NCBI GenBank assembly: GCA_947494195.1
Contig: CANLUC010000002.1
Coordinates: 248,001-312,000 of the forward strand
Source: an uncultured Nesterenkonia sp.
GTDB taxonomy: Bacteria > Actinomycetota > Actinomycetes > Actinomycetales > Micrococcaceae
Direction of reading: 5' to 3'
Length of the DNA: 64,000 nucleotides
Below, in pieces: positions 6,080 to 47,852 of this stretch (position 1 is the first letter of the stretch; each line of letters opens with the position of its first letter). The notes below the pieces were generated by a model that saw nothing but the letters and a program-made list of their open reading frames with translations, was not told where the DNA came from and ran no database searches. Both the position numbers and the translations under genes were made by a program.

Positions 6080-6082
6080 GCG

Positions 6083-8076: not shown

Positions 8077-8137
8077 GAGACACAACCCCTGGGAACCCGT
8101 CATCGCCCGGGCGGTGTGCATCTGCGCCGGAGCAGGG

Positions 8138-8143
8138 CAGACT
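8138..8143 (+). promoter_or_regulatory. -10-like CAGACT, 6 nt before ATG 8150
   Basis: CAGACT followed by TGGCCC and ATG. It matches the TANNNT-N6-start pattern except at the first base. No Shine-Dalgarno is visible before this start. Confidence 0.35.
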
Positions 8144-8149
8144 TGGCCC

Positions 8150-8812: not shown

Positions 8813-8925
8813 GACCTGGGCGGGCTGCCGCAGGGCGGAAAAGCGGCAATCTGCACTCCAGCTCATCCTGCAGGATGAGGTGCTGACCGGCCTGTAGTCC
8901 GATGTGGACCACCACGGGTGGTTCG

Positions 8926-8931
8926 TAGGGT
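8926..8931 (+). promoter_or_regulatory. -10-like TAGGGT, 7 nt before ATG 8939
   Basis: TAGGGT then seven bases then ATG of the ABC ATPase, with no Shine-Dalgarno. Leaderless type. The frame is open a little further upstream (8918), but the ABC family match begins after ATG 8939. Confidence 0.45.
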
Positions 8932-8938
8932 GAACAGC

Positions 8939-31558: not shown

Positions 31559-33003
31559 TGGCGCAGGAGACGCCGCGCAGAGGTCCCGCCCACCAGGACG
31601 CAGCAGCGGTTCGACTGCCGTGGCTGCAGGTGCAGGGACGACATCTCGTCGATGAATCTGGAGCACCCGTGAGGCTCTATGGCGTGGGCATGGGCGGGTG
31701 GATGAATATGGAGAACTTCATCAGCGGCTACCCGGGGAACGAAGAGAATATTCGCCGGATCATGCTGGATCGAATGGGGCGGGACTCCTTCGATGCGTTC
31801 TTCGAAGCCTTCTACGAGGACTTCATCGCAGAGGATGACGCGAGACACCTCGCGTCACTCGGCCTGAACTCGGTCCGTATCCCTTTCAACTACCGCCACT
31901 TCGAGGATGATGCGGCACCGTTCGAGCTGAAGGAAGAAGGGTTTCGGCGGCTCGATCGTGTCATCGACCTCTTCGCGCGCCATGGCATCTACTCGATTCT
32001 TGACCTGCACGCCGTCCCGGGGAGGCAGAATCAGCAGTGGCACAGTGACAACCCCGGCCACCTCGCCGAGTTCTGGCAGCATCCGCATTTTCAGGATCGA
32101 GCCGTGCACCTCTGGGAAGCGATCGCTGATCGGTACCGGAATCGGTCGGAGGTCGCGGGGTACAACCCGCTGAATGAACCTGCTGAGGAAACCGGCGATG
32201 CGCTCTCTGCGTTCTATGAGCGTGTGGCGAAAGCCATCCGGGCCGTGGATCCCAGACATGTCCTGTTCCTGGATGGCAATAAGCAGTCCACCGACTTCAG
32301 CGTGTTTGAGAAGCAGGGTGACCCCCTGCCCAACAGCGTCTATACGGCTCACGACTACTCGCTTCCCGGGATCAGCCGCGAGGGCCGGTATCCCGGCATC
32401 ACCAATGGCGAGATGTACGACCGTCGAAGGGTCGAGGAGACATTTCTCCGGCGCACGGAATACATGCGCAGAACAGGCACGCCCATCTGGGTGGGCGAAT
32501 TTGGGCCCTTCTACCCCCAAGACCAGCACGATCAAGAATGGCGCTACCAGCTGCTGCAGGACCAGCTGGAGATCTATGCAGAGCATGAGGCCAGCTGGGC
32601 GCTGTGGACATTCAAGGACGTCGGGCTCCAGGGCCTCCTTCACACGCGGCCGGATTCCGAGTACATGAGACGTATCCAGCCGGCCTATGACCTCAAACAG
32701 TCGCTCGGCACCGATTATTGGGGCGGATCCGAGACGGGTGTGGCGCACATACTGGATCCGGTCAAGGAACTCTTTGATCGCGAGTTCCCGGACTTCAAGC
32801 CCTATCCTTGGGGCCAGAAGCGTCATATCAGTCTGCTTGTGCGCAACATTCTGTTAGCGGAACCCTTGGCCGAGAAGTTCGGGGACCTCTTCCGGGGCGT
32901 TGACCCCGACCAGGCTCGCGCTCTCGCCCGCTCCTTCCGCTTTGACGAGTGTGAGGAGCGCACGCAATTGAGCGACCTGCTGCGGAAGTACACCACTGTC
33001 TAG
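31558..33003 (+). CDS. Glycoside hydrolase family 5 protein
   Basis: 481 residues, TIM-barrel retaining glycosidase of the cellulase/exo-glucanase superfamily. Visible are the N-terminal block YGVGMGGWMNMENFISGYPG, SLGLNSVRIPFNYRHF, the acid/base Glu of NEP (about residue 207) and the nucleophile Glu in WVGEFGPFYP (about 314). No signal peptide is present, so it acts inside the cell on imported oligosaccharides. Start and stop overlap with the lipoprotein gene (TGATG), so the pair is coupled. Substrate linkage cannot be told; a beta-glucoside or beta-mannoside is plausible. Confidence 0.85.
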   Translation: MAQETPRRGPAHQDAAAVRLPWLQVQGRHLVDESGAPVRLYGVGMGGWMNMENFISGYPGNEENIRRIMLDRMGRDSFDAFFEAFYEDFIAEDDARHLASLGLNSVRIPFNYRHFEDDAAPFELKEEGFRRLDRVIDLFARHGIYSILDLHAVPGRQNQQWHSDNPGHLAEFWQHPHFQDRAVHLWEAIADRYRNRSEVAGYNPLNEPAEETGDALSAFYERVAKAIRAVDPRHVLFLDGNKQSTDFSVFEKQGDPLPNSVYTAHDYSLPGISREGRYPGITNGEMYDRRRVEETFLRRTEYMRRTGTPIWVGEFGPFYPQDQHDQEWRYQLLQDQLEIYAEHEASWALWTFKDVGLQGLLHTRPDSEYMRRIQPAYDLKQSLGTDYWGGSETGVAHILDPVKELFDREFPDFKPYPWGQKRHISLLVRNILLAEPLAEKFGDLFRGVDPDQARALARSFRFDECEERTQLSDLLRKYTTV

Positions 33004-33069
33004 GAGAGCGGCGGTGAGACGCAGCGTCGTGGGTCGGTGCCGCGTTCCAGCGCCCGGATGGTGTGGCGA

Positions 33070-33075
33070 TAGGCT
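33070..33075 (+). promoter_or_regulatory. -10-like TAGGCT, 6 nt before GTG 33082
   Basis: TAGGCT-N6-GTG in front of serS with no Shine-Dalgarno. Leaderless type. Confidence 0.5.
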
Positions 33076-33081
33076 GGTGTC

Positions 33082-34371
33082 GTGATCGACATCAAGGACC
33101 TCATCGAGAATCCCGAGACCTACCGGGCCAGCCAGCGCGCACGCCAGGCGGACGAAGCAGCAGTGGATGCGCTGATCTCCGCCCAGGAGTCCCGCAACGC
33201 CGCCATCACCCGCTTTGAGACGCTGCGAGCGGAGCAGAAGTCCTTCGGCAAGAAGGTCGCCCAGGCCAGCGGCGAGGAGAAGCAGCAGCTGCTTGCGGAG
33301 GTCAAGGAGCTCTCACACCAGGTGAAGGCTGCCGAGACCGCCTCCGGTGAGGCCGAGGACCAGCTGCGCCGACTCCAGGGTGCCTTCCCGAACCTCATCC
33401 ACGAAGGTGTCCCCGCCGGCGGTGAGGACGACTTCGTCGTTCTGCGTGAGGAAGGCGCGGCCCGTGACTTCGAGGCCGAGGGATTCACCCCCAAGGACCA
33501 CCTGGAACTGGCCGAGCGTCTGGCCGCCGTGGACATGGAGCGCGGGGCCAAGGTCTCCGGCGCGCGATTCTACTTCCTCAAGGGGATCGGCGCGCGACTG
33601 GAGCTGGCGATGATGCAGATGGGCCTGGACCAGGCGGTGGAGGCCGGCTTCACTCCGATGATCACTCCCACCCTGGTGCGCCCCGAGACCATGGCAGGCA
33701 CCGGATTCGACGTGGAGCACGATGACGAGATCTACCGTCTCGAGCGCGACGACCTCTATCTGGTCGGCACCTCGGAGGTGGCGATCGCCGGATACCACTC
33801 GGATGAGATCCTTGACCTGGACAAGGGTCCGGAGCGGATCGCTGGATGGTCCACCTGCTACCGCCGCGAGGCCGGCTCGCATGGCCGGGACACCCGGGGG
33901 ATCCTGCGCGTGCATCAGTTCAACAAGCTCGAGATGTTCATCTACTGCTCGGCCGAAGACTCCGCCGCGGAGCACGCGAAGCTCCTGGCCTGGGAGGAGA
34001 AGATGCTCCAGAAGATGGAGCTGCCTTACCGGGTGGTGGACATCGCCGCCGGTGATCTTGGTCTCTCCGCGGCCCGCAAGTTCGACTGCGAAGCGTGGGT
34101 TCCTTCCCAATCGACCTACCGCGAGCTCACGTCCACCTCCGACTGCACCACTTTCCAGGCACGGCGGCTCAACATCCGGGAACGCACGCTGAAGGAGGAC
34201 GGCTCCAAGGGCCCCACGCGCCCCGTGGCCACGCTGAACGGGACGTTGGCGACCACGCGCTGGCTGGTCGCGATCCTGGAGAATCACCAGCAGGCGGACG
34301 GCACTGTGCGCGTGCCCGAGGCGCTGCGTCCCTACCTCGGCGGCATGGAAGTGATGACCCCGCCGGCCTGA
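33082..34371 (+). CDS. serS: Serine-tRNA ligase
   Basis: Class II aminoacyl-tRNA synthetase charging tRNA-Ser. 429 residues. The N-terminal antiparallel coiled coil spans about 25-105 ([20 protein letters not shown]). The catalytic core shows motif 2 in [20 protein letters not shown] and motif 3 in [19 protein letters not shown]. The [15 protein letters not shown] and [19 protein letters not shown] blocks are typical of SerRS. GTG start with a leaderless-type promoter. Confidence 0.97.
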
Positions 34372-34380
34372 ACTGGCAAC

Positions 34381-34399
34381 TGAGGATAGGCTCAACTGC
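34381..34399. promoter_or_regulatory. DtxR/IdeR-like iron-box match upstream of dps
   Basis: The 19-mer TGAGGATAGGCTCAACTGC matches 13 of 19 positions of the consensus TTAGGTTAGGCTAACCTAA, including the core TAGGCT. It sits just upstream of the dps -10 region. The core also resembles a -10 hexamer, so the match is uncertain. Confidence 0.3.
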
Positions 34400-34423
34400 C
34401 TAGCGGTCCCTTTTATGAATCAC

Positions 34424-34429
34424 TAGTAT
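34424..34429 (+). promoter_or_regulatory. -10-like TAGTAT of the dps promoter
   Basis: TAGTAT in an AT-rich island, 54 nt before the dps ATG. The -35 is weak, which suggests activator or alternative-sigma dependence. Confidence 0.4.
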
Positions 34430-34483
34430 CAACAGTGTCCGCGCCGAACAGCGCTAATGCATCAACAGCACAAGGAGTGTGAC

Positions 34484-34987
34484 ATGACTGAGAAGTACTC
34501 CGACTACACCGCGCCAGGTCTGGCGCAGGAGAACGGCCACGAAATTGCCGGTCTGCTGCAGAGCCGCCTGTACGCCCTGAATGATCTTCATCTGGTCCTC
34601 AAGCACGTCCACTGGAACGTGGTGGGCCCGAACTTCATCGCCATCCACGAGATGCTCGACCCGCAGACCGAGGTCGTGCGCGGATTCGCCGATGAGGTCG
34701 CCGAGCGCATCGCCACCCTGGGTGGATCCCCCTCCGGACTGAGCGGAGAGCTGGTCTCCAAGCGCCACTGGGAGGACTACCCGCTGTTCAAGGCAGACGG
34801 GACCACTCACCTGGCCGAGCTTGAAAAGGTCTACGACGGCGTCATCGGCGACCACCGCGACGTGCTGAACAAGGTCGGCGAGCTCGATCCGATCACCGAG
34901 GACCTGCTCATCGGACAGGCGAAGGCGCTCGAGCTCTTCCAGTGGTTCATCCGCTCCCACCTGGACAAGGCCGGAGCCACCTCCTGA
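34484..34987 (+). CDS. dps: Dps-family ferritin-like DNA-protection protein
   Basis: Forms a dodecamer that oxidises and stores iron and shields DNA under oxidative stress or starvation. 167 residues from ATG 34484, which follows AAGGAG by 8 nt (an in-frame ATG at 34457 lacks a ribosome site). The ferroxidase signature HVHWNVVGPNFIAIHEMLD with its His, Asp and Glu ligands is intact, as are FADEVAERIATLGG and LFQWFIRSHL. Monocistronic, ending in a strong terminator. Confidence 0.94.
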   Translation: MTEKYSDYTAPGLAQENGHEIAGLLQSRLYALNDLHLVLKHVHWNVVGPNFIAIHEMLDPQTEVVRGFADEVAERIATLGGSPSGLSGELVSKRHWEDYPLFKADGTTHLAELEKVYDGVIGDHRDVLNKVGELDPITEDLLIGQAKALELFQWFIRSHLDKAGATS

Positions 34988-35165: not shown

Positions 35166-35642
35166 ATGAGCAGTCAGTTTCGAATCGTCATCGGCAGCGA
35201 TGAAGCCGGTTTTGCCTATAAAGAAGTGCTGAAAGCTGATTTGGAGGCCGATCCTCGAGTGGCCTCGGTCGTCGACGTCGGCGTCGGCGACGACGCGGAC
35301 AAGACTCCGTATCCGAATGTCGGGGTCTCCGCCGCAGAAAAGATCGTCGCTGGCGAGGCCGACCGGGCGCTGCTGCTCTGCGGCACTGGTCTCGGCGTGG
35401 CCATCTCGGCCAACAAGGTCAAGGGCGTTCGCGCAGTCACCGCGCACGATGCCTATTCCGTGGAGCGCGGCGTGCTCTCGAACAACGCCCAGGTGCTCTG
35501 CATGGGACAGCGTGTGATCGGGCGAGAGCTTGCCCGCAAGCTGGTCGATGAGTGGCTCAAGCATGAGTTCGACCCCTCGAGCGCCTCCGCCGAAAAGGTC
35601 GGAGCGATCACGCGCTATGAGGACACCGGCAGCTGCAGCTAG
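35166..35642 (+). CDS. RpiB/LacAB-family sugar-phosphate isomerase (erythrulose-4-P to erythrose-4-P candidate)
   Basis: 158 residues. Typical RpiB fold: [20 protein letters not shown] at the N-terminus and the catalytic Cys and anion loop [48 protein letters not shown] follows as successive blocks. Family members interconvert aldose and ketose phosphates. Because it lies beside a DhaKL-type kinase and a TIM-like isomerase, the EryI-type reaction (D-erythrulose 4-phosphate to D-erythrose 4-phosphate) fits better than ribose-5-phosphate isomerisation. Its stop overlaps the convergent regulator's stop by 4 bp. Confidence 0.8.
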
Positions 35643-36598
35643 AGCTGGCGGTCCATCGCGCGAGCCGTTGACTCGTCGGTCACCAGGATGTTGAACCATC
35701 CTGCGCTGGCCGCAGCGATGATGCTCGGCGCCTTGTGAACCCCTACTGCCGCCGCGATGCGCGTGGGAACGGCACGCAGCGTCTCGCCAGGAACGCGCAC
35801 CATCCGCTCGCTGCCGGGGAACGTGACCTCGTGGCCCTGCGGATCGTAGAACGCGAGGCAGACATCGCCGATGGACTGCGCGAGGTTCGGGTGATGACGG
35901 GGCACTGACTGGGCGATCGAATTGCGTGACAGCGGCGCCGCGCCGATGCCCACCAGTGCCACCTTTGCGGTGTTCCAATCGGCGACCACCTGGCGATAGC
36001 CTGGGTCGTCCTGCAGCGCCGAGAGCAGGGCCGGTGAGGGCATCGATGGCGCGAAGAGGTAGTGGGGGTAGCCCCCGGAGGTCGCGGCGAAGGCCCGCAC
36101 CACCTCATTGGTCTGGTGCCAGGGATCCGGCTCCGCCTGGCCGCCCACGGTGGGGGCGATGACCACGCCCGCGAAGTCGCCCAGGCGCTGCTGTGCCAAT
36201 GCGTAGGTCGTCTCCCCTGAGGCCAGCAGCAGGACGTCGCCGGCGCGCAGATTCGCACCTGCGAGGGCCTGCCGCGTCACCGGGCCCAATCCTAGGCCGA
36301 CCCGCTGCGACTGATCTCCCGGTGCCAGGTGCACAGCCTCCACGCCCAGCTTCTGCGTCAGCCGCGCGCTGAGCTCATCCATGCCGGAGGCCGCAGGGCG
36401 GTGGACTCGAATCTCGACGATTCCCTGCGCCCGCGCCTCTGCCAACATGCGGCTGACCGAGGGGCGGGACACCTTCAGCTGCTCGGCAACCTCGGCCTGG
36501 GTCGCGCCCTGCTCGTAGTAGAGCTGAGCAGCCCGATACAGGCGTTCCAGCTCAGACGTGCCCGCGGGAGCGTCGTTCATGACCTCTGTTGCCTCCAT
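35639..36598 (-). CDS. SorC/DeoR-family sugar-binding transcriptional regulator
   Basis: 319 residues from ATG 36598. An N-terminal HTH ([38 protein letters not shown]) is joined to a SorC-type sugar-phosphate-binding domain with [20 protein letters not shown] and [21 protein letters not shown] -10-like TACGAT lies 6 nt before ATG 36598, which favours this start over GTG 36619 or ATG 36580. It is divergent from the dihydroxyacetone-kinase-like gene and convergent with the RpiB-like gene. It probably controls both, with a phosphorylated intermediate as effector. Confidence 0.88.
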
Positions 36599-36604
36599 CG
36601 GGAC

Positions 36605-36610
36605 ATCGTA
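36605..36610 (-). promoter_or_regulatory. -10-like TACGAT, 6 nt before ATG 36598 (minus strand)
   Basis: TACGAT-N6-ATG on the minus strand for the SorC regulator. Leaderless type, and the basis for choosing this start codon. Confidence 0.4.
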
Positions 36611-36674
36611 TCCGTCCACCTGACTTCACAGTGAAAGTGGTGCTGGTCACGCCATCTGCTCTAGGGTGGCCTCA

Positions 36675-36698
36675 GCACATATGTCAGCGCACATCTGT
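36675..36698. promoter_or_regulatory. Two GCACATNTGT sites upstream of the DhaKL-type kinase
   Basis: GCACATATGT (36675-36684) and GCACATCTGT (36689-36698) lie 14 bp apart, just after a -10-like TAGGGT at 36662-36667. ACATCTGT recurs inverted upstream of the RpiB-like gene. Likely operator for the SorC regulator. Confidence 0.45.
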
Positions 36699-36742
36699 AC
36701 CGCCCGTCAAGGGCGTACCGATCCGGGACCACGAGGACAGTC

Positions 36743-38473
36743 ATGACCTACCTGCTCAACTCTGCATCTGATTTCTCCCACGAGGCGGTGCTCGGCTTCG
36801 CCGCCGCCAACTCGCAATACGTGACCGCCGTGCACGGGGGAGTGGTTCGCTCCACGCAGACCCCCGCCGGCCAGCCGGCGCTGGTGATCGGCGGCGGCTC
36901 GGGACACTACCCCGCGTTCGCCGGCTGGGTCGGCCCCGGGATGGGCCACGGCGCCCCGTGCGGAAACATCTTCTCCTCCCCCTCCGCCTCCCAGGTCTAC
37001 TCGGTGGCCCGCAACGCCGAGAACGGCGGCGGAGTTCTCATGGGATTCGGAAACTACGCCGGAGACGTCCTGCACTTCGGAGCCGCCGCAGAGAAGCTCC
37101 GTGCTGAGGGGATCGACGTGCGGATCATTCGAGTCAGCGACGACATCGCCTCGAACAGCCGCAAGAACCATCGCGATCGCCGCGGCATCGCCGGTGACCT
37201 TCCGGTGTTCAAGATCGCCGGAGCCGCAATCGAGGCGGGCGCTGATCTGGATGAGGCCGAGCGGATCGCGTGGAAGGCCAATGACGCGACGCGTTCCTTC
37301 GGGCTGGCTTTCGACGGGTGCACGCTGCCAGGTGCCGAGGAGCCGCTGTTCCATGTGCCCGAGTCCACCATGGGCGTCGGACTGGGGATCCACGGGGAGC
37401 CCGGCATTCGAGATCTGCCGATGGGCACCGCCAGTGAGGTCGCCGACCTGCTCTTCGAAGGCATCCTTGAGGAGGTGCCGCAGGATCGGAGCGGACGCGT
37501 CGCCGTCGTGCTCAACGGTCTGGGTCGAGTCAAGTATGAAGAGCTCTTCGTGGTCTATGGGCGGATCGCTGAGCGTCTGGCAGAAGCAGGTCTCACTGCC
37601 GTGCAGCCCGAGGTCGGGGAGTTCGTCACCAGTCTGGACATGGCGGGACTGTCCCTGACCGTGGTGTTCCTCGATGAGGAGCTCGAGCAGCACTGGACGG
37701 CCGCCGTGGATACTCCCGCCTATCGCCGAGGCGAGCTTCGGGACCTCTCCTCGATGCAGGACCGCGCTCCGCGCACCGAGTTCTACACTCCCGGCGAGGA
37801 GAATGTTCCCGCGGCCACCTCGGAGTCGCAGACCACCGCGGCCTCCGTGCAGGAGGTCATTGAGCTCTTCGCGCGGGTCTGCGCCGAGAACGAGGGCGAA
37901 CTCGGCCGGCTCGACGCCGTGGCCGGCGACGGCGACCACGGCCAGGGCATGGTCCTGGGCAGCCGCGGCGCGGTTGAGGCTGGCCGCGCAGCGCTCGAGA
38001 GAGGGGCAGGGGCCAGGACGGTGCTGCTCCACGCCGGAACGGCATGGGCCGAGTCTGCGGGCGGCACCTCTGGTGCCCTCTGGGGTTCAGCGCTCACCGC
38101 AGCCGGTGGCGCGCTCTCCGATGAGACGAAGGCTGACCCGGAAGCCGCGGTGCAGGCGCTGCTCAGCGCGGTCGAGGCCGTCCGTCGGCTCGGTGGCGCA
38201 CAGCCGGGGGACAAGACCATGGTCGACGCCGCAGCTCCATTCGCTGCGCACCTGAAGGAGCAGTCGCAGGCCGGAGAGGATCTGCCCTCCGCGCTCTCCG
38301 CAGCGGCTGCCATTGCTACCGAGGCCGCTGCCGAGACCGCAGAGCTCAAGGCGCGCCTGGGCCGCTCCCGGGTCCTCGGTGACAAATCGCTCGGCACGCC
38401 TGATCCAGGGGCCACCTCCTTCGCCCTGCTCATGGAGGCTCTGGCGGACCACCTGAAGAAGGCCCGCGGATGA
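36743..38473 (+). CDS. Fused DhaK-DhaL ATP-dependent ketose kinase (erythrulose/dihydroxyacetone kinase family)
   Basis: 576 residues. The N-terminal DhaK domain (about 1-330) shows ALVIGGGSGHYPAFAGWVGP, PCGNIFSSPSASQVYSVARN and the substrate-binding His in MGVGLGIHGEPG. The C-terminal DhaL ATP domain (about 370-576) shows DAVAGDGDHGQGMVLGSRGA, the AESAGGTSGALWG loop and LGTPDPGATSFALLM. It uses ATP and not the PTS, since no DhaM is encoded. The family covers dihydroxyacetone and the tetruloses; the neighbouring TIM-like and RpiB-like isomerases favour an erythrulose (LerK/DerK-like). The stop overlaps the next start (ATGA). Confidence 0.88.
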   Translation: MTYLLNSASDFSHEAVLGFAAANSQYVTAVHGGVVRSTQTPAGQPALVIGGGSGHYPAFAGWVGPGMGHGAPCGNIFSSPSASQVYSVARNAENGGGVLMGFGNYAGDVLHFGAAAEKLRAEGIDVRIIRVSDDIASNSRKNHRDRRGIAGDLPVFKIAGAAIEAGADLDEAERIAWKANDATRSFGLAFDGCTLPGAEEPLFHVPESTMGVGLGIHGEPGIRDLPMGTASEVADLLFEGILEEVPQDRSGRVAVVLNGLGRVKYEELFVVYGRIAERLAEAGLTAVQPEVGEFVTSLDMAGLSLTVVFLDEELEQHWTAAVDTPAYRRGELRDLSSMQDRAPRTEFYTPGEENVPAATSESQTTAASVQEVIELFARVCAENEGELGRLDAVAGDGDHGQGMVLGSRGAVEAGRAALERGAGARTVLLHAGTAWAESAGGTSGALWGSALTAAGGALSDETKADPEAAVQALLSAVEAVRRLGGAQPGDKTMVDAAAPFAAHLKEQSQAGEDLPSALSAAAAIATEAAAETAELKARLGRSRVLGDKSLGTPDPGATSFALLMEALADHLKKARG

Positions 38474-39255
38474 CCCGTTGGATCGGCACCAGCTGGAAGA
38501 TGAACAAGTCCCTGGCCGAGGCGCGCGCCTACGCCAAGGGGCTCCACGAGGCGCTCAGCAGCCGGCCTGAGCTCACGGACGGGGTGCAGCCGTTCATCAT
38601 CCCTCCCCATACTGCGCTGGCAGCTGTGGCCACCGAACTCAGTTCGGATTCCCCAGGGGCCGGATCGGCCCCCGGCGTTCACCTCGGCGCGCAGAACGCG
38701 CACTGGGAGGACAGTGGGGCCTGGACCGGGGAAGTCTCGGTTCCCCAGGTCAAAGATGCCGGTGCCGTGCTCCTCGAGATCGGCCACTCCGAGCGCCGCG
38801 AACACTTCGCGGAGACCGTCGAGACCACCCGCTTCAAGGTCGAGGCAGCCCTGCGGCACGAGCTGATCCCGTTGCTGTGCATCGGCGAATCCGCCCAGAT
38901 CCGCCAGCAGGGCGGCACGGCCGACTTCCTGCTTGATCAGGCGCGCGGTGCGCTCCAGGGGCTCACCGAGGAGCAGCTGAGCCGGGTCCTCATCGCCTAT
39001 GAGCCCATCTGGGCGATCGGCGCGCAGGGACGCCCGGCCGAGGTCGGTGAGCTCCTCGAGCCCTTCGACGTGCTGCACCGGGAGTACGGAGGCCGAGTCG
39101 AGGCCCTGCTCTATGGAGGATCGGTCACACCGGCCAACGCTGCGCAACTGCTGGGCATCCCCGGGGTACAGGGTCTGTTCATCGGACGCGCGGCATGGTC
39201 CCTGCAGGGATATCTGGAACTTCTCCAGCTCGCGGCCCGGCCCTCCGCCGCCTAG
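38470..39255 (+). CDS. Triosephosphate-isomerase-family protein (tetrulose-phosphate isomerase candidate)
   Basis: 261 residues. TIM fold with all catalytic residues: Lys in GTSWKMNKS (about 12), His in LEIGHSERREHF (about 103) and Glu in IAYEPIWAIGAQG (about 178). LLYGGSVTPANAAQLL is the phosphate loop. It overlaps the kinase gene and is separated from any glycolytic gap/pgk genes. A pathway-specific role such as LerI/EryH-type isomerisation of erythrulose phosphate is therefore likelier than the housekeeping reaction. It could still act on dihydroxyacetone phosphate. Confidence 0.85.
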   Translation: MTRWIGTSWKMNKSLAEARAYAKGLHEALSSRPELTDGVQPFIIPPHTALAAVATELSSDSPGAGSAPGVHLGAQNAHWEDSGAWTGEVSVPQVKDAGAVLLEIGHSERREHFAETVETTRFKVEAALRHELIPLLCIGESAQIRQQGGTADFLLDQARGALQGLTEEQLSRVLIAYEPIWAIGAQGRPAEVGELLEPFDVLHREYGGRVEALLYGGSVTPANAAQLLGIPGVQGLFIGRAAWSLQGYLELLQLAARPSAA

Positions 39256-39304
39256 ATTCCGCAGCACTCGGCTCCCCGCGTAGCCCCACAATCACGTGTG
39301 ACGC

Positions 39305-39333
39305 TTGACACACGAGACCAAGTACTCAAAGAT
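39305..39333 (+). promoter_or_regulatory. Promoter TTGACA, 17 bp, AAAGAT before the TIM-barrel gene
   Basis: Consensus -35 TTGACA (39305-39310) with AAAGAT at 39328-39333. This suggests that the downstream three-gene unit (39363-42752) also has its own promoter. Confidence 0.5.
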
Positions 39334-39362
39334 GAACCCGCATGCACGTTTGAAAGGAACAG

Positions 39363-40319
39363 ATGTTCACAGCAGCCACGTGGCCCATCGCAGGAAATAT
39401 GCTCGCCTTCGGAGGCACAACATCCGAGGGTGTCCCGGTCTGGGAGGCATCGACGACCTATTGGTCCGACTGCCTGCGCCAGATGCGCGAACTCGGCTTC
39501 GATCACATCGATCCCACGGATGCCTGGCTTCCTCTGCAGAAGCTCTCCCCATCCCGTCTCGAAGACTTCAAGAAGGTCCTCGCGGATGAGGGGCTCAAAA
39601 TCTCTTCGATCTCCATGACGCGGAACTCGGTGGTGGATCGAGAGCACGGCGAACGCAATCTCGCCGATGCCCATCGGCTGATCGACATCGCCCCCGAGTT
39701 TGGTGCGACGATCGTCAACACCGGCTTCATGCAGGCGCTGACACCGGTCCAGCAACAGGCGCTCTGGTTCTGGCTCGAAGAGGGCCACCACGACGACCCC
39801 GCGCTGCGCCCGCTGGCCGTGGAGCGAATCCGCGAACTCGGTGACCACGCTCAGGCCAACGGCATCGAGCTGAGCCTGGAGATGTATGAGGACACCTTCC
39901 TCGGCACCGCCGACGACGCCGTCGCGTTCCACGCCGACGTCGACCACCCCGCCGTGGGCCTGAACCCCGATCTCGGCAACTTCATCCGCCTGCACCGACC
40001 GATGCCGGCCTATGAGGAGATGTTCGAGAAGGTCCTCCCGCACGCGAACTTCTGGCACATCAAGAACTACACCCGGGACGAAGACCCGGCGACGGGCGGC
40101 TACTCCTCGGCGCCGATGCCCCTGAAGTACGGCCAGATCAACTATCGCAAGATCATCCGCCGAGCCCTGGAGCTCGGCTACACCGGGCCGTTCTGCTGCG
40201 AGCACTACGGCTCGGACTCCATCGGAGTCTGTGCCGAGAATCGCGAGTACATCGCACAGATTCTGACCTCAGCCGAGAACAGTCCACTGCTCGCCGCCGC
40301 ACGCCCAGCCACGAGCTGA
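39363..40319 (+). CDS. Sugar phosphate isomerase/epimerase-like TIM-barrel protein (xylose isomerase-like)
   Basis: 318 residues, AP_endonuc_2/xylose-isomerase-like fold. Metal-binding acidic and His residues are likely in IELSLEMYEDTFLGTADD, VGLNPDLGNFIRLHRP, HANFWHIKNYTRDED and GPFCCEHYGSDSIGVC. AAAGGAAC precedes the ATG. Members include epimerases, hydroxypyruvate/2-oxo-tetronate isomerases and at least one beta-oxo-acid decarboxylase (OiaC type). Because the next gene encodes a 3-hydroxy-acid dehydrogenase, a decarboxylase or isomerase acting on its 3-oxo product is attractive. This is inference. Confidence 0.75.
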   Translation: MFTAATWPIAGNMLAFGGTTSEGVPVWEASTTYWSDCLRQMRELGFDHIDPTDAWLPLQKLSPSRLEDFKKVLADEGLKISSISMTRNSVVDREHGERNLADAHRLIDIAPEFGATIVNTGFMQALTPVQQQALWFWLEEGHHDDPALRPLAVERIRELGDHAQANGIELSLEMYEDTFLGTADDAVAFHADVDHPAVGLNPDLGNFIRLHRPMPAYEEMFEKVLPHANFWHIKNYTRDEDPATGGYSSAPMPLKYGQINYRKIIRRALELGYTGPFCCEHYGSDSIGVCAENREYIAQILTSAENSPLLAAARPATS

Positions 40320-40383
40320 ATCGGCAGCGATCAGGCACGAACACCACCAGACAGTGCACCATGACGAAAGAGACATGAGAACT

Positions 40384-41352
40384 ATGGCCAAGACCATCAA
40401 CACCGTGACAGTCGTCGGCGCCGGATACATGGGCGGCGGCATCGCCCAGTCCCTGGCCCTGGCGGAGCTGAAAGTCGAGATCGTCGACGTCGACGTCGAG
40501 GCGGCCAAGAAGGGTCTCGAGCGGCTGCTCCAGGAGGCTCAGGAGTTTGAGGACCAGGGGCTCTATGCCGCTGGATCCACTGAGACCATCAAGGCGAACC
40601 TGACGGCGGGCCGCACGCTTGAAGAGGCAGTCGCCGAGTCTGACTTCATCGAGGAGGCCGTCTTCGAGTCCCCCGAGGTCAAGCGCGAGGTGCTGGGAAA
40701 GATCTCCGAGCACGCTCGCGAAGACGCCATCATCGGCACGAACACCTCCACCATCCCGGTCCACGTGCTGGTCTCAGCGGTGAAGAACCCCGAACGGTTC
40801 CTCACCGTGCACTTCTCCAACCCTGCTCCCTTCATCCCCGGCGTGGAGCTGGTCTCAGGTGAGGCCACGACCCCGGACGTGGTCGATGCCGTCAAGGAGC
40901 TCCTTGCTCGCGCGGGCCGCGAAGGTGCCGAGGTCGCTGACACTCCCGGCATGGTGCTGAACCGGCTGCAGTACGCGCTGCTCAAGGAGGCCGCCTCGGT
41001 GGTCGAGGAGGGCATCGCCACCGCAGAAGATGTCGACACCGTGGTCCGGACCACCTTCGGCTTCCGGCTCGGCTTCTTCGGCCCCTTCGCGATCGCCGAC
41101 CAGGCGGGCCTCGATGTCTACGCCAACGGGTTCGACACGCTTTCCGAGGCTTATGGTGAACGCCTCGCCGCGCCGAAGCTGCTCGCGGAGAACGTCGCCG
41201 CTGGTCGCCACGGAGTCAAGAACGGCAAGGGCTGGACCGGGGACTTCGACGAGGAGACCAAGGCGGCCGTCATCGCCTACCGCAACAAGGCCTACGCCCG
41301 CATGGGCGACCTGCTGCGCGAGCTGGGCCCGGCACCGAAGGGTAAGAAATGA
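40384..41352 (+). CDS. 3-hydroxyacyl-CoA dehydrogenase-family NAD-dependent sugar-acid dehydrogenase
   Basis: 322 residues. Rossmann domain with VTVVGAGYMGGGIAQSLALA, followed by the FLTVHFSNPAPFIPGVELV and DTPGMVLNRLQYALLKEAAS blocks and the C-terminal helical domain. This short two-domain form includes L-gulonate 3-dehydrogenase (lambda-crystallin type), and the operon context has no acyl-CoA genes. I therefore favour oxidation of a sugar acid at C3. ATG 40384 is 10 nt after AAAGAGA; in-frame GTG 40354 and ATG 40375 are alternatives. Its stop overlaps the permease start. Confidence 0.82.
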   Translation: MAKTINTVTVVGAGYMGGGIAQSLALAELKVEIVDVDVEAAKKGLERLLQEAQEFEDQGLYAAGSTETIKANLTAGRTLEEAVAESDFIEEAVFESPEVKREVLGKISEHAREDAIIGTNTSTIPVHVLVSAVKNPERFLTVHFSNPAPFIPGVELVSGEATTPDVVDAVKELLARAGREGAEVADTPGMVLNRLQYALLKEAASVVEEGIATAEDVDTVVRTTFGFRLGFFGPFAIADQAGLDVYANGFDTLSEAYGERLAAPKLLAENVAAGRHGVKNGKGWTGDFDEETKAAVIAYRNKAYARMGDLLRELGPAPKGKK

Positions 41353-42752
41353 CCGATGATCTGACGCTCGCCTTCGAGCTTCCCACCCCAGCCCTCCTGG
41401 GCCTGGCACTGGCGTCCATCCTCCTGCTGCTGGTGCTCATCGTGAAGGTCAAGCTTCACGCCTTCTTCTCGCTGATCATCGTTTCACTGATCACCGCACT
41501 GGCCGCCGGCATCGCCGTCGGCGACGTGCTCTCCGTGGTGGTCGGCGGCTTCTCCACCACAGTGGGCAGTGTCGCGCTGCTCATCGGCTTCGGCGCGGTG
41601 CTTGGCCGTCTGGTCGAGATCTCCGGCGGCGCGCAGGTCCTGGCGGACAAGATGCTCGCCACCTTCGGAGAGAAGCGAGCACCCCTGGCCCTCGCCGTGG
41701 CCTCGCTGTTCTACGCCTTCCCGATCTTCCTCGACGCAGGCTTCATCGTCATGCTCCCGGTGATCTATACCGTGGCGCGCAGGCTCGGCGGCAGCTTCAT
41801 GCTCTACGTGCTGCCTTCGATCGGCGCGTTCCTGATGATGCATGCGCTCACCCCACCCCACCCCGGGCCGACGGCGGCCGCCACGGTCATGGGCGCGGAC
41901 ATCGGTCTCGTGCTGATCGTGGCCATGATGGTGGGAATCCCCACCTGGTACCTCGCCGGCTACCGGCTCGGACTGGTGATGGCCAAGGGCTACCCGAACT
42001 TCCCGGTCCCGAACCTCTTCGGTGAATCCAGAGTCACCGAAGAGTATGCGCGGCCAGCCTTCGGCACCGTCATCTTCGTGCTGCTCCTGCCGCTGGCGCT
42101 GATCTTCTACAACGCACTGTCGAACACGCTGGAGGCCGATGGCCGAATCAGCGAGGACAGCTTCGGCTACGCGCTCTCCCAGCTCATCGGTCCCACCCCC
42201 GTGGCGCTGCTGATCGCAACACTGGCCGCGATGTACCTGCTCTTCATCAAGCCACGCAGGGGCTCGGGCGGACTCGGCGACGCGATGTCCGACCTGATCG
42301 ACAACGCGCTCGCTCCGGTCTGCTCGATCATCCTGATCACGGGTGCCGGCGGTGCCTTCGGCGCCGTGCTCACGGCCACCGGGATCGGCGGATCCATCGC
42401 GGAGGGGCTGGATGCGCTGGGTCTGCCGGTCATCCTCGCAGGCTTCCTCGTCGCGGTGGTCATCCGCGTCGCGCAGGGCTCGGCCACGGTGGCCGCGACC
42501 ACAGCGGGCAGCATCATGGCGCCCGGCGTCATGGAGCTGGGACTCGACGGCTTCGCCCTGGCATCGCTTGTGGTTGCCATCGTGGCGGGTTCGATCACTT
42601 TCTCGCACTTCAATGACTCCGGTTTCTGGCTCGTCGGCCGCTTCTGCGGCTTCGACACGATCACCACGTTGAAGACCTGGTCCGTCATGGCCACGGCCAT
42701 CGGCTTCATGGCCTTCTTCCTCAGCTGGGGCGTCTACGCCATCGCCGCCTGA
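41349..42752 (+). CDS. GntP-family gluconate/sugar-acid:H+ symporter
   Basis: 467 residues, about 12-14 membrane helices. GntP marks: GDVLSVVVGGFSTTVGSVAL, LLIGFGAVLGRLVEISGGAQ, FYAFPIFLDAGFIVMLPVIY and HALTPPHPGPTAAATVMGAD. The transporter imports aldonic acids such as gluconate. Translationally coupled to the dehydrogenase (ATGA), so the dehydrogenase substrate is probably the imported acid. Confidence 0.92.
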   Translation: MTDDLTLAFELPTPALLGLALASILLLLVLIVKVKLHAFFSLIIVSLITALAAGIAVGDVLSVVVGGFSTTVGSVALLIGFGAVLGRLVEISGGAQVLADKMLATFGEKRAPLALAVASLFYAFPIFLDAGFIVMLPVIYTVARRLGGSFMLYVLPSIGAFLMMHALTPPHPGPTAAATVMGADIGLVLIVAMMVGIPTWYLAGYRLGLVMAKGYPNFPVPNLFGESRVTEEYARPAFGTVIFVLLLPLALIFYNALSNTLEADGRISEDSFGYALSQLIGPTPVALLIATLAAMYLLFIKPRRGSGGLGDAMSDLIDNALAPVCSIILITGAGGAFGAVLTATGIGGSIAEGLDALGLPVILAGFLVAVVIRVAQGSATVAATTAGSIMAPGVMELGLDGFALASLVVAIVAGSITFSHFNDSGFWLVGRFCGFDTITTLKTWSVMATAIGFMAFFLSWGVYAIAA

Positions 42753-42785: not shown

Positions 42786-42819
42786 AACATCGCAATTGAT
42801 GAGGATAGGAATGATTTCT

Positions 42820-44124
42820 ATGTGGGGTAAGAAAACCAAGCTGAGCACCGCGGTCCTCGCGGCAGGTGCGCTCCTGAGCGTGTCAGCATGCGGAGGTGGG
42901 GACGGCGGCGGCTCAGAGGGCGGCGAGCCAAGCGCCTGGGTCCTCAACGGTGGCGTCTGGAACGAGGTGGAGGAGGACTTCGAGGCATGGAACGAAGAGA
43001 ACCCTGACCAGGCCTTCGCCGTGGAGAGCTTCGCCAACGACATCTATAAGGACCGCATTCGCCAGGCCGTGGGTTCAGGGGAAGCACCCACGCTGATCGT
43101 CGGGTGGACCGGCGGAGGACTGCTGGAGTACGTCGAAGGGGACTACGTCACCGACATCACCGAGGAGACCGAGGAGCTGCGAGGTCGGCTGATCGAGTCG
43201 GTGGTCGCCAACGGTGAGGTGGACGGTTCCACCTACGCCGTCCCGATGAACAACGTCCAGCCCGTCGTCATGTATTACAACCAGGCAGTCTTCGACGAGG
43301 CCGGCATCGAGGTGCCGACCACCTGGGAAGAGACCCTCGAAGCGGTGGAGGTGTTCAATGAGCAAGGCGTCCATCCCTTCGCCCTCGCCGGAGGCTCCAA
43401 TTGGCCCCTGCTGATGTGGGCCTCTTACTTGACCGACCGCATCGGTGGTCCGGAGGCGTTCCAGGCCGTGGTGGAGGGCGAGGAAGATGCCTGGTCGCAC
43501 CCGGCCATCATCGAGGCGCTGGAACGTTGTCAGGAGCTTGTGGAGGCGGGGGCCTTCGACCCAGGGTTCGCCTCGGTGGTGGCTGACAACAACGAGGACG
43601 CCCACCTCGTGGCGGACGGCAAGGCGGCTATGGTCCTGCAGGGGTCATGGGTCTACTCGCGTCTGCTTGAGGAGAGTCCCGACTTCATGGAGACCGGCAA
43701 TCTCGGTGTGACCACTTTCCCCGAGATCGAGGGCGGAGAAGGCGACCCGGCGAACATCGTCGGCAATCCAGCCAACTTCTGGTCGGTCTCGGCCAATGCC
43801 TCCGAAGGCGAGCAGCAGGCGGCGGTGGACTACCTCTCTGACTGGCTGTTCAACGACGAGTATGTCGACGGCATGCTGGAGACCGGGAACATCCCCCCGC
43901 TGACCGGGCTCGAGGATGAGATTGCAGAGACCGAGGATTCCGAGTTCCTCAACTTCACCTACGAAACCGTGACAGATGCCCCCAACTTCCAGCTGTCCTG
44001 GGATCAGGCTGTCGATCCCGCGCAGGTGCAGGTTCTGCTGCAGAGCCTCTCCCAGGTATTCCGCGGCGAGATCACGCCTGAGGAGTTTGCGACGAACATG
44101 AACGAAGCCCAGACCAGCGAGTAA
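42820..44124 (+). CDS. CUT1-type sugar ABC transporter solute-binding lipoprotein (paralogue 2)
   Basis: 434 residues. Signal peptide MWGKKTKLSTAVLAAGALLS with lipobox SVSAC before a Gly/Asp-rich tether. ATG 42820 is chosen because GAGGATAGGA lies 9 nt upstream. Earlier TTG and ATG codons are in frame. Sequence blocks APTLIVGWTGGGLLEYVEGD, NPANFWSVSANASE and NFQLSWDQAVDP show that it is a paralogue of the proteins at 30275 and 44495, the most divergent of the three. It is a one-gene unit ending in a strong terminator and must share permeases. Confidence 0.9.
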   Translation: MWGKKTKLSTAVLAAGALLSVSACGGGDGGGSEGGEPSAWVLNGGVWNEVEEDFEAWNEENPDQAFAVESFANDIYKDRIRQAVGSGEAPTLIVGWTGGGLLEYVEGDYVTDITEETEELRGRLIESVVANGEVDGSTYAVPMNNVQPVVMYYNQAVFDEAGIEVPTTWEETLEAVEVFNEQGVHPFALAGGSNWPLLMWASYLTDRIGGPEAFQAVVEGEEDAWSHPAIIEALERCQELVEAGAFDPGFASVVADNNEDAHLVADGKAAMVLQGSWVYSRLLEESPDFMETGNLGVTTFPEIEGGEGDPANIVGNPANFWSVSANASEGEQQAAVDYLSDWLFNDEYVDGMLETGNIPPLTGLEDEIAETEDSEFLNFTYETVTDAPNFQLSWDQAVDPAQVQVLLQSLSQVFRGEITPEEFATNMNEAQTSE

Positions 44125-44143
44125 TCGAGGGTTGTTCACAGAC

Positions 44144-44191
44144 CGTAAGGCCTGGGCACCGGCAGAAGATCGCTGGTGACCAGGCCTTACG
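44144..44191 (+). terminator. Terminator after binding protein 2
   Basis: Perfect 12-bp stem CGTAAGGCCTGG / CCAGGCCTTACG, 20 nt after the stop. The stem ends contain CGTAAG/CTTACG, similar to the nearby operator motif; this may be coincidence. The 370-nt gap 44125-44494 otherwise holds the promoter and operator of the next gene. Confidence 0.75.
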
Positions 44192-44279
44192 ACTGTGGCG
44201 AGTGTCCGCCTTGATCAGACCTGCTGCGAGTTAAGTTTCACCATAAGACGCAAGTGTGACTGTCGTCATGGGTTGTGTC

Positions 44280-44308
44280 TTGACACACACTGATCGGCTA
44301 TTTAGTCT
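44280..44308 (+). promoter_or_regulatory. Strong promoter TTGACA, 17 bp, TAGTCT before binding protein 3
   Basis: Consensus -35 TTGACA (44280-44285), a 17-bp spacer and -10 TAGTCT (44303-44308). This is the best sigma-70-type promoter in the window. It leaves a leader of about 180 nt before the ATG at 44495. Confidence 0.7.
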
Positions 44309-44319
44309 TACGGCAAGAC
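44305..44319. promoter_or_regulatory. Operator-like dyad GTCTT-ACGGC-AAGAC over the start site
   Basis: Perfect 5-bp arms around ACGGC, overlapping the -10 and predicted start of transcription. This is the position expected of a repressor. It shares TCTTACGG with the region before binding protein 2. Confidence 0.5.
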
Positions 44320-44494
44320 GAAATCCAGATCACAGTCTGTTTCAGGTCCACTCGGGCTTCAGACCCGGATCTGGTTCGGACTGCGGCTCTGTACCGCTGA
44401 GCACCCCCGCCCGGCCGATCCGGGACGCGGGGAAGCCTCGGCCATGTACCGGTACAGCGCTGGAGCTCGCACTGATGAGAAAGGACGCGCGACG

Positions 44495-45790
44495 ATGCGT
44501 AAAGCAACTCGTATGGCAGCAGCAGGCCTCGGAGTCACCTCCCTGATGGCGATCTCCGCCTGTGGCGGCGGCGGAGACAACGGCGGTGGAGGCGGAGACG
44601 CAGACGCCAACGCATGGATCCTGACCGGTGGCGGCTGGCCCGCCATCGAAGAAGACTTCAACCGTTGGAACGAATCCAACGAAGACGCACAGATCGATGT
44701 CGAGGGCATCGAGAACGATTCCTACAAGGGTCAGATCCGCACTGCGGTCGGCTCCGGCGAGGCCCCCACGCTGATCATGTCCTGGACCGGCGGCGCGCTG
44801 CTGGAATACGCCGAGCAGGATGCCATCGTGGACCTCACCGGCGAGACCGGTGACCTCGAAGAGCGCGTCTTCGACTCGGTCTGGCAGAACGGCCAGGTCG
44901 ACGGCAGCACCTACGCCGTGCCCATGAACGATGTGCAGCCAGTGGTCATGTATTACAACCAGGAGGTCTTCGACGAGGCCGGTGTCGAGATCCCAGAGAC
45001 CTGGGAAGACGTCGAGGCCGCCATCGATACCTTCAACGAGAACGACGTTGCTCCGTTCTCCCTCGCAGGCGGCTCCGTCTGGCCGGCCCTGATGTGGCTG
45101 CAGTACCTCACGGATCGCCACGGCGGCGAAGAGGTGTTCCAGGCAGTGGTCGAGGGTGAAGAGGACGCATGGGACAACGAGTCCATCCTCTTCGCACTGG
45201 AGACCATGCAGGACCTGGGGGAGAACGGTGGCTTCATCGACTCCTACAACTCCGTGACCGCAGACCAGAACGAGGATGCCCAGCTGCTGGCTGACGGCCA
45301 GGCCGCCATGCTGCTGCAGGGCTCCTGGGTCTACGCCACCATCAACAACGACTTCCCAGAGTTCGCTGATTCGGGCAACTTCGGCTTCACCTCCTTCCCG
45401 ACTCTGGAAGACGGCGCGGGGGATCCCTCGAACATCGTGGGCAACCCGGCGAACTTCTGGTCGGTCTCGGCTGACGCCTCGGAAGAAGAGCAGCAGATCG
45501 CTACTGATTACATCAGCGAGAACCTCTACAACGAGGAGACCGTGACGGCGATGCTCGAGGCCGGCTCGCTGCCGCCGCTCAACGACATCGAGGAAGAGAT
45601 CGCTGCCACTGAAGACGCGGACTTCCTGGAGTTCTCCAGCCAGCTGGTGGGCGACGCCAACCACTTCCAGCTCTCCTGGGACCAGGCTGTCGCCCCTGAG
45701 GTGGCCCAGCCGCTGACGGACAACCTGTCCGGAATTCTCCGCGGGGAGATGACTCCGCAGGAGTTCGTCGACGCGATGAACGCACTGTAA
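44495..45790 (+). CDS. CUT1-type sugar ABC transporter solute-binding lipoprotein (paralogue 3)
   Basis: 431 residues. Signal peptide MRKATRMAAAGLGVTSLMAI with lipobox AISAC and a Gly-rich tether. ATG 44495 follows AAAGGA by 10 nt; the frame is open to 44444. Very acidic mature chain. Closest to paralogue 1 (APTLIMSWTGGALLEYAEQD, GSVWPALMWLQYLTDRHGGE, NPANFWSVSADASE). It stands directly before the two permease genes and is therefore the cognate binding protein of that transporter. Confidence 0.92.
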   Translation: MRKATRMAAAGLGVTSLMAISACGGGGDNGGGGGDADANAWILTGGGWPAIEEDFNRWNESNEDAQIDVEGIENDSYKGQIRTAVGSGEAPTLIMSWTGGALLEYAEQDAIVDLTGETGDLEERVFDSVWQNGQVDGSTYAVPMNDVQPVVMYYNQEVFDEAGVEIPETWEDVEAAIDTFNENDVAPFSLAGGSVWPALMWLQYLTDRHGGEEVFQAVVEGEEDAWDNESILFALETMQDLGENGGFIDSYNSVTADQNEDAQLLADGQAAMLLQGSWVYATINNDFPEFADSGNFGFTSFPTLEDGAGDPSNIVGNPANFWSVSADASEEEQQIATDYISENLYNEETVTAMLEAGSLPPLNDIEEEIAATEDADFLEFSSQLVGDANHFQLSWDQAVAPEVAQPLTDNLSGILRGEMTPQEFVDAMNAL

Positions 45791-45803
45791 CAACCCCACA
45801 TTC

Positions 45804-45837
45804 GGTTCGGGGCGGCCACTACTGGTCGCCCCGGACC
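45804..45837 (+). terminator. Intra-operon hairpin between binding protein 3 and permeases
   Basis: Stem of about 14 bp with one mismatch or G-U pairs (GGTTCGGGGCGGCC / GGTCGCCCCGGACC) around a 6-nt loop, 13 nt after the lipoprotein stop. A partial terminator or mRNA-stabilising hairpin here would give more binding protein than permease. Confidence 0.55.
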
Positions 45838-45876
45838 GTTTGCCTTGCACCGACAACAAGAATCTGAATCGAGCTC

Positions 45877-47732: not shown

Positions 47733-47761
47733 GAATCGGCATCAACGCCTGACCCTCGGCG

Positions 47762-47800
47762 CCGCCGCATCGAAGCTGTCCATCAGCTCCGATGCGGCGG
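47762..47800 (+). terminator. Terminator between permease 2 and the GH3 gene
   Basis: Perfect 11-bp stem CCGCCGCATCG / CGATGCGGCGG with a 17-nt loop, followed by CTTTGCC. GH3 may be a separate unit or read through. Confidence 0.7.
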
Positions 47801-47852
47801 CTTTGCCATGCCAATGCCTCATCGTCGCTGAAACAACCCAAGGAGTTCATAC

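Follow-up and report, generated by a model that had tools for sequence, protein, structure and literature searches.

A seven-gene block of an uncultured Nesterenkonia species, proposed to convert a C5 sugar acid to erythrose 4-phosphate

Here we describe a block of seven genes in an uncultured Nesterenkonia sp. with a genome of 2.78 Mb (assembly GCA_947494195.1). The window, i.e. the whole stretch of DNA analysed, comprises 64,000 nucleotides of contig CANLUC010000002.1, and coordinates given without a locus number refer to it. The block occupies positions 35166-42752 and may be a catabolic module for a C5 sugar acid that ends at erythrose 4-phosphate, a reading we consider about evenly balanced between right and wrong. 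It begins with an RpiB/LacAB-family isomerase containing a CGTGLG motif (RpiB; 35166..35642, plus strand, PF02502), followed by a SorC-type regulator with a winged helix and a sugar-binding domain (35639..36619, minus strand, PF04198), which is divergent from the next gene, that of a fused DhaK-DhaL (Dak1-Dak2) kinase (DhaKL; 36743..38473, plus strand, PF02733 and PF02734). The remaining four genes, all on the plus strand, encode an isomerase of the triosephosphate isomerase (TIM) family (38470..39255), an AP_endonuc_2/xylose-isomerase-like TIM-barrel protein of the 5TNV family (XI; 39363..40319, PF01261), a 3-hydroxyacyl-CoA-dehydrogenase-like protein with 3HCDH_N and 3HCDH domains (HAD; 40354..41352, PF02737 and PF00725) and a GntP-family permease (41349..42752, PF02447). 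In-frame ATG codons at 40375 and 40384 appear from the sequence to be likelier starts for HAD.

A preliminary description of this DNA had named the same seven genes, and all were found at these positions. Its statement that most junctions are coupled was too strong, since same-strand overlaps of 4 bases occur at only two of the six junctions (DhaKL/TIM and HAD/GntP); XI and HAD are separated by 34 bp and TIM and XI by 107 bp, SorC and DhaKL are divergent with 123 bp between them, and RpiB and SorC converge with a 4-base overlap. The nearest relative among the XI loci is Nesterenkonia sp. Act20, with 100% identical XI proteins.

Linkage and strand were scored in 80 loci found from XI, counting gene copies that covered at least 80% of the query, and gene content was scored in 81 XI loci of more than 15 kb with fixed bit-score thresholds. 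Locus L110 repeats L035 (identical kinase), so that one locus is counted twice in the 81-locus set and in the palindrome counts given below. A class-wide set, an even sample of 394 genomes not centred on either locus, was searched at E<=1e-70 for HAD and E<=1e-60 for XI. Among the 80 loci, XI is accompanied by HAD in 56, DhaKL in 56, RpiB in 49 and TIM in 41, in varying gene order; in the 81-locus set RpiB occurs in 60, DhaKL in 68 and HAD in 59. Class-wide, HAD is found in 16/394 genomes, XI in 18/394 and both in 12, where 0.73 would be expected by chance (hypergeometric 1.3e-15, uncorrected for kinship), and in all 12 the two genes lie within 2.5 kb of each other. The genes thus co-occur in relatives, a point on which the preliminary description had made its proposal depend, and their grouping is not due to chance. 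Judged from their sequences, the seven genes form a conserved and widespread catabolic module. HAD lies on the strand of XI in 56/56 cases, compared with 30/56 for DhaKL and 14/41 for TIM, which makes the dehydrogenase the nearest partner of XI, and the loci L053, L081 and L108 hold XI and HAD but no kinase, RpiB or TIM. Promicromonospora sukumoe has two XI loci, L062 with HAD and without TIM, and L064 with TIM and without HAD.

The lower half of the predicted route, in which the kinase and two isomerases lead to erythrose 4-phosphate, is well supported, as is the earlier assignment of these three proteins to tetrulose-phosphate metabolism. The best solved match of the block TIM is 11ef, named L-erythrulose-1-phosphate isomerase (E 4.7e-68), compared with 7.4e-46 for the best triosephosphate isomerase. 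It passes the cut-off of model NF000722, which NCBI names triose-phosphate isomerase (332 against 293); the other TIM of the genome scores 218.6, under the cut-off, which was passed in none of 14 control genomes. By sequence the block TIM is LerI-like, i.e. of the L-erythrulose-1-phosphate isomerase type. DhaKL scores 739.3 with PRK14479, over its cut-off, and 366.6 with the glycerone kinase model TIGR02361 (cut-off 575); it is distinct from the dihydroxyacetone kinase equivalogs, falling under the cut-offs of TIGR02361, TIGR02363 and TIGR02365, and is proposed to be a LerK-like L-erythrulose 1-kinase. RpiB passes RPI_actino (199.8, cut-off 168.2), and from its context we propose that it is an EryI/DerI-like isomerase converting D-erythrulose 4-phosphate to D-erythrose 4-phosphate. 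A distant second RpiB (GSGNGEQ motif, 38 bits in phmmer) and a second fused DAK protein (158 bits against the block DhaKL) are encoded elsewhere in the genome, as is the other TIM, so the block carries its own copies of all three. According to two reports, LerI and DerI together with EltD and LerK turn L-threitol and erythritol into erythrose 4-phosphate in E. coli (PMC10733421), and M. smegmatis converts tetritols via erythruloses and their 4-phosphates to erythrose 4-phosphate (PMC12780249).

The dehydrogenase reaches the curated cut-off of none of the 21 NCBIfam models listed, the best being PRK08269 (215.5, cut-off 427). It contains NRLQYA and an R-x-x-F-x-GP loop without the 3-residue deletion, a feature of the lambda-crystallin type; the single-domain acyl-CoA enzymes shown in the alignment have this deletion, beside the place where HAD has a basic residue. 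The loop aligns without gaps with 4om8, which acts on a pyridine carboxylate and has Lys at the corresponding place, and with lambda-crystallin (3ado, 3f3s), with which the Arg is shared; as a fragment, it is nearest to the carboxylate enzyme 4om8, followed by 6ium and then lambda-crystallin. The loop Arg may bind the carboxylate of the substrate. In the whole-protein ranking, 4om8 comes first, acyl-CoA enzymes next and 3f3s 30th of 55. Two other HADs of the genome have HFFNPV-type, acyl-CoA-like motifs. The block HAD, which had been described as of the sugar-acid type, thus has substrate-loop features of beta-hydroxyacid dehydrogenases that do not use CoA, and it is proposed to be an aldonate 3-dehydrogenase. 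On whether it clusters with true acyl-CoA enzymes, a test named in the preliminary description, the answer is divided: the loop is nearest to a carboxylate enzyme, and in the whole-fold comparison acyl-CoA enzymes rank first.

In the 81 loci, HAD is present in 59 and a PdxA-type dehydrogenase in nine, and no locus has both. PdxA oxidises a beta-hydroxyl next to the carboxylate end of its substrate. The mutual replacement beside XI of two unrelated beta-hydroxyl dehydrogenases argues that the step is oxidation of the acid at C3. Plasmids of Shinella and Pararhizobium carry GntR, PdxA, TctC-TctB-TctA, XI and DhaKL genes, and Paracoccus sp. TOH has the same genes in another order; these are three of the 94 plasmid records with an XI match, and a fourth such record carries no annotation. 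In a Brachybacterium locus without HAD (L042:10968-15031), XI is followed by genes for a short-chain dehydrogenase/reductase, an FMN-dependent lactate-dehydrogenase-like protein, a D-2-hydroxyacid dehydrogenase and another short-chain dehydrogenase/reductase, a set that could possibly provide a C2-epimerising entry.

The AlphaFold2 model of XI has a mean predicted local distance difference test score (pLDDT) of 93 and matches 5TNV, an M. smegmatis protein in complex with Mg, to which XI is 74% identical and whose title carries no functional name. Residues E173, D203, H232, E280, R87, R209, K234 and R238 are invariant in 38 XI sequences, and the first four presumably constitute a metal set, by analogy. 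Since XI is tied to HAD by strand and by the loci that hold the pair without kinase and isomerases, it is expected to act on the product of the dehydrogenase, and we propose that it is a metal-dependent 3-oxo-acid decarboxylase.

The permease exceeds the cut-off of TIGR00791 (326.8 against 292.75) and is proposed to import a sugar acid; the earlier view of GntP as an acid importer is likely. In relatives GntP is often exchanged for carriers of the tripartite tricarboxylate (TctABC) or major facilitator superfamily (MFS) types, and sometimes for an ATP-binding cassette (ABC) carrier. The recurrent types, GntP, TctABC and MFS, move organic acids or are general, and were counted in favour of acid import. 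A LerI-type TIM together with RpiB points to erythrulose more than to dihydroxyacetone and so to a C5 acid, probably an aldonate and most likely a linear one of the L-series. Genes for SMP-30-type lactonases near XI and HAD (L013, L053) and, in Microbacterium, for an FAD oxidase of the sugar-lactone-oxidase type that stays under the NCBIfam cut-offs fit aldonates weakly. Two Nesterenkonia species without a second TIM have overlapping open reading frames (ORFs) for a D-2-hydroxyacid dehydrogenase and a GFO/IDH/MocA protein after HAD (L009:11998-12915, L011:11792-13168); these too may be said to fit aldonates, weakly. Alpha-L-fucosidase-family genes lie by two XI loci (L031:17066-18397, L061:13539-15068), too few to indicate a sugar.

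In the proposed route, GntP would import the C5 sugar acid, HAD would oxidise its C3 hydroxyl with NAD(P) to a beta-keto acid, and XI would decarboxylate this to L-erythrulose. DhaKL would then form L-erythrulose 1-phosphate, the LerI-type TIM would shift the carbonyl, yielding D-erythrulose 4-phosphate, from which the RpiB-type enzyme would make D-erythrose 4-phosphate for the pentose phosphate pathway, with SorC regulating the block. We infer the acid, the carbon oxidised, the decarboxylation by XI and the part played by the regulator.

Several observations weigh against this route. In L012 and L061 the neighbours of XI include sugar-type ABC carriers, and in L007 and L008 ribose-type ones. 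In the whole-fold ranking of HAD, acyl-CoA enzymes come first, 4om8 is 31st and lambda-crystallin 43rd; in the multifunctional enzymes 6ium and 1zcj, the second 3HCDH domain is also ungapped in the loop, but lacks the Arg. HADs without XI, represented by four class-wide genomes and two second HAD copies elsewhere (loci L098-L101, L103 and L111, three of them annotated), are 47-54% identical to the block HAD, and XI-linked HADs go down to 52%; as these ranges overlap, the specificity of a HAD is not readable from family or identity alone. Among the unlinked HADs, that of L100 (51% identical) lies with HpaB, CoA-transferase, cyclase, E1-type and enoyl-CoA hydratase genes (2239-9699) of an apparently aromatic or CoA-linked pathway, that of L099 adjoins ketopantoate-reductase-type and rhodanese genes, and that of L103 adjoins histidinol dehydrogenase. 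Neither HAD nor PdxA is present in 13 of the 81 XI loci (of 11 such loci examined, seven have a gene of a short-chain dehydrogenase cluster), and the rhizobial PdxA-Tct-XI-DhaKL loci have no RpiB or TIM nearby. The second-best model of RpiB, the D-erythrulose-4-phosphate isomerase model NF051858, whose name ends in Rhiz and which is apparently rhizobial, is matched at 158.2, under its cut-off of 240. The folds nearest to XI after 5TNV are Art22, UlaE, D-tagatose 3-epimerase and other ketose 3-epimerases including L-ribulose 3-epimerase, and the palindrome discussed below under regulation is not present in L003-L009, the nearest Nesterenkonia loci. Finally, a survey of 30 chosen genomes with an XI locus included six with a single TIM of canonical score (L009, L011, L055, L056, L065 and L075), so that the route via L-erythrulose cannot hold everywhere and a version via D-erythrulose must be supposed there.

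In the same survey, a TIM over the NF000722 cut-off was present in 12/30 genomes and a second TIM under the cut-off in 12/30; altogether, 18/30 genomes with XI have no TIM over it. On a quick tree with several long branches, the kinases cluster by the presence of a block-like TIM in the locus (10 changes, compared with 25.9 in shuffles). Most simply, loci without TIM would produce D-erythrulose, for which LerI would not be needed. In Paracoccus aminovorans, where locus L078 lacks TIM, an NF000722-type TIM (437.7 bits) is encoded elsewhere; XI at the E-value used was found in no other genome of an alphaproteobacterial sample (1/240, the centre genome), so that an ery-type TIM acting in trans is indicated by this one genome. 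Two Nesterenkonia species have genes for a zinc alcohol dehydrogenase, a DUF2291 lipoprotein and a ribose-type ABC carrier between TIM and XI (L007:4149-9805, L008:4152-9817), which look like a tetritol uptake branch using the same kinase and isomerase.

The main rival explanation keeps the acid and the dehydrogenase and makes XI a 3-epimerase or isomerase, similar to EryC or to the ketose 3-epimerases, whose substrate would be erythrulose, its phosphate or the 3-oxo acid, with decarboxylation occurring spontaneously or by the dehydrogenase. Beta-keto acids lose CO2 easily, and EryC, which works with EryH and EryI, is an epimerase of the superfamily of XI; the fold ranking given above and the conservation in XI of the E-D-H-E metal set and of an Arg six residues after the His (roles by analogy) speak for such an activity. 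We nevertheless consider it rather unlikely, as XI is bound to HAD and not to the tetrulose steps, both in strand and in the three loci where the pair stands without them, and as it persists in the 18 surveyed genomes that have no NF000722-passing TIM, where a role like that of EryC makes little sense. Another alternative starts from a C4 tetronate, from which HAD would form 3-oxo-tetronate, XI dihydroxyacetone, DhaKL dihydroxyacetone phosphate (DHAP) and TIM glyceraldehyde 3-phosphate, leaving RpiB a bystander. It would suit the two rhizobial operons that have PdxA-Tct-XI-DhaKL only, as well as Paracoccus sp. TOH, in which adjoining genes are annotated as 3-oxo-tetronate kinase and aldolase, and several Actinomycetota loci adjoined by DUF1537 kinase and LtnD-type genes. 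However, the conversion of dihydroxyacetone to DHAP needs neither a TIM of the L-erythrulose-1-phosphate type nor the RpiB found in 60/81 loci, and P. aminovorans has its NF000722-type TIM outside the locus. The C4 acid, which the preliminary description had kept as an option, is thus improbable for this block and still compatible with the rhizobial loci; as the sole explanation, a tetronate route to dihydroxyacetone was rejected on account of the LerI-type TIM and RpiB.

Very improbable, in our estimate, is that HAD oxidises isoapionate to 3-oxo-isoapionate and that XI is OiaC, forming L-erythrulose. The apionate pathway ends in the same trio of enzymes, and in three Brachybacterium loci (L031, L037, L042) genes for an ApnO-like protein and a second TIM-barrel protein adjoin the kinase-isomerase operon. 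This ApnO-like PGDH_C protein, which we take to be ApnO, occurs in 21/394 genomes and matches 5t57, an entry with a generic name. Its gene lies next to that of a different TIM-barrel protein, here called c24 and presumably OiaC, in 16/16 of the genomes with c24 (among the 394), and c24 is only 24% identical to XI, over part of its length; XI was therefore rejected as OiaC. Neither the ApnO-like protein nor c24 was found in the host genome at the E-values used, and in the 6/18 XI genomes that have the ApnO-like gene it lies at another place on the chromosome or on a different contig. In addition, the lactonase, 2-hydroxyacid dehydrogenase and FMN-dehydrogenase neighbours, each from single loci, suit a secondary C2 hydroxyl better, albeit weakly. 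As the XI set and the ApnO-like/c24 set flank one kinase-isomerase operon in the three Brachybacterium loci, the product of XI seems to enter at the level of erythrulose. Of the route put forward in the preliminary description, the likely acid importer, the dehydrogenase with non-CoA features and the kinase-isomerase trio were retained, and an OiaC/apionate identity found no support. That HAD is instead a true 3-hydroxyacyl-CoA enzyme in a mixed assembly of unrelated genes accords with its Pfam and NCBIfam names and its whole-fold ranking, and is extremely improbable given its tight linkage to XI, its loop, the absence of an acyl-CoA gene from the block and the acyl-CoA-like motifs of the two other HADs of the genome. 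Plain beta-oxidation was rejected by the NCBIfam cut-offs, the loop and the context.

Turning to regulation, the palindromic octamer CCTATAGG was sought in 1.78 Mb of sequence, including the 250 bp that precede XI (94 loci) and DhaKL (74 loci). It was first noticed in some loci and then counted on all 94, i.e. post hoc, with the 95 other palindromic octamers containing four G or C serving as the control. The octamer precedes XI in 42/94 loci, where the next best of the 96 reaches 4/94, and DhaKL in 22-23/74 (the range reflects the handling of window edges); 68 of its 81 sites fall within these upstream regions. Separate sites at XI and DhaKL occur in 11 loci, with several pairs kilobases apart. 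A protein of the GntR/FCD type, often encoded beside XI or DhaKL, is the likely binder of CCTATAGG. Upstream of XI and DhaKL in many loci, e.g. L014, L047 and L106, the palindrome is TCCTATAGGA-like and a candidate GntR/FCD operator of the regulon. On the strength of the shared upstream palindrome, the module is judged to be co-regulated in many relatives; the expectation of co-regulation in the preliminary description thus holds for these and does not extend to the near Nesterenkonia loci L003-L009, which have SorC instead. In the block itself, SorC is presumed to exert control. The 123-bp region between SorC and DhaKL holds ACATATGT and ACATCTGT, which are both intact in L004-L006 and changed in L007, L008 and L073. 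An imperfect inverted repeat, TCACGTGTG..CACACGAGA, precedes the XI gene (39292..39317) beside a TTGACA hexamer and is a candidate second promoter/operator; L004 and L005 retain only its core, GTGTGACGCTTGACACA, and L006 this core with one change. Taken together, an undescribed non-phosphorylative pentonate pathway via erythrulose, with XI as a new metal-dependent 3-oxo-pentonate decarboxylase, L and D forms (the former with and the latter without the LerI-type TIM), two unrelated dehydrogenases and, in a large share of the Actinomycetota loci observed, a regulon with a TCCTATAGGA-like operator, is put forward tentatively, at somewhat under even confidence.

Upstream of the block (31555-34987) lie genes for a glycosidase of glycoside hydrolase family 5 (GH5) type, a seryl-tRNA-synthetase-like ORF, named from its own sequence only, and a Dps-type ferritin; these genes gave no sign of belonging to the module. 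Downstream (42796-50219) are genes for a lipoprotein of the substrate-binding protein type and a similar protein, two ORFs that look like ABC permeases by sequence appearance only, and a GH3 glycosidase. Genes related to this downstream set also trail the block in several Nesterenkonia loci, and in Microbacterium (L079) XI directly adjoins a GH3 gene that belongs to the same cluster.

The block can be compared with four known systems. In the decarboxylation route for apionate, ApnO and OiaC act in turn, followed by L-erythrulose; like the block as proposed here, that route has an acid carrier, an oxidation to a beta-keto acid, a TIM-barrel protein and the same kinase-isomerase trio, whereas its dehydrogenase is PGDH_C/KARI-like, its TIM barrel belongs to the c24 family and this pair is separate in genomes. 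The threonate and erythronate routes employ LtnD or PdxA2, a DUF1537 kinase, OtnC and OtnI. They share with the block GntP or Tct carriers, a TIM-barrel protein and the logic of 3-oxidation and decarboxylation; the block differs in having DhaKL in place of DUF1537, no OtnC-type aldolase and a proposed end at erythrose 4-phosphate, not DHAP. Tetritol catabolism in Mycolicibacterium smegmatis and Brucella (LerK, LerI and DerI; EryH and EryI) resembles the block in its kinase or dehydrogenase entry and in the LerI-type and RpiB-type isomerases leading to erythrose 4-phosphate (PMC10733421, PMC12780249). The block would be entered from an acid, through C3 oxidation and loss of CO2, and not from a polyol, and it adds HAD, XI and GntP. 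In the animal L-gulonate route, from L-gulonate via 3-dehydro-L-gulonate to L-xylulose, a 3HCDH-family enzyme (CRYL1, L-gulonate 3-dehydrogenase) likewise oxidises an aldonate at C3 and CO2 is lost to give a ketose; unlike the block, it leads from a C6 acid to a pentulose, and the 3-dehydro-L-gulonate decarboxylase is described as newly identified (PMC12435205).

Among the matches listed, no description of the module was found in the open-access literature searched, which leaves out most subscription papers; the same search returned no paper on 5TNV, none joining 3-hydroxyacyl-CoA dehydrogenase, GntP and dihydroxyacetone kinase and, among the matches listed, none on a pentonate-erythrulose route by title or start of the abstract. 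A published assignment elsewhere is possible, since the structure of the M. smegmatis homologue has been public since 2016. If correct, the proposal would assign a role to a widespread protein family whose crystal structure dates from that year and whose name is only generic, and would account for the additional TIM, RpiB and DhaKL copies, which family models label as housekeeping enzymes. With the candidate operator, the regulon can be searched for directly, and an erythrose 4-phosphate-forming module would be available for engineering. For the bacteria themselves, the block would provide a new entry to erythrose 4-phosphate from a linear sugar acid, in addition to those from polyols and apionate, and would predict their growth on a C5 sugar acid.

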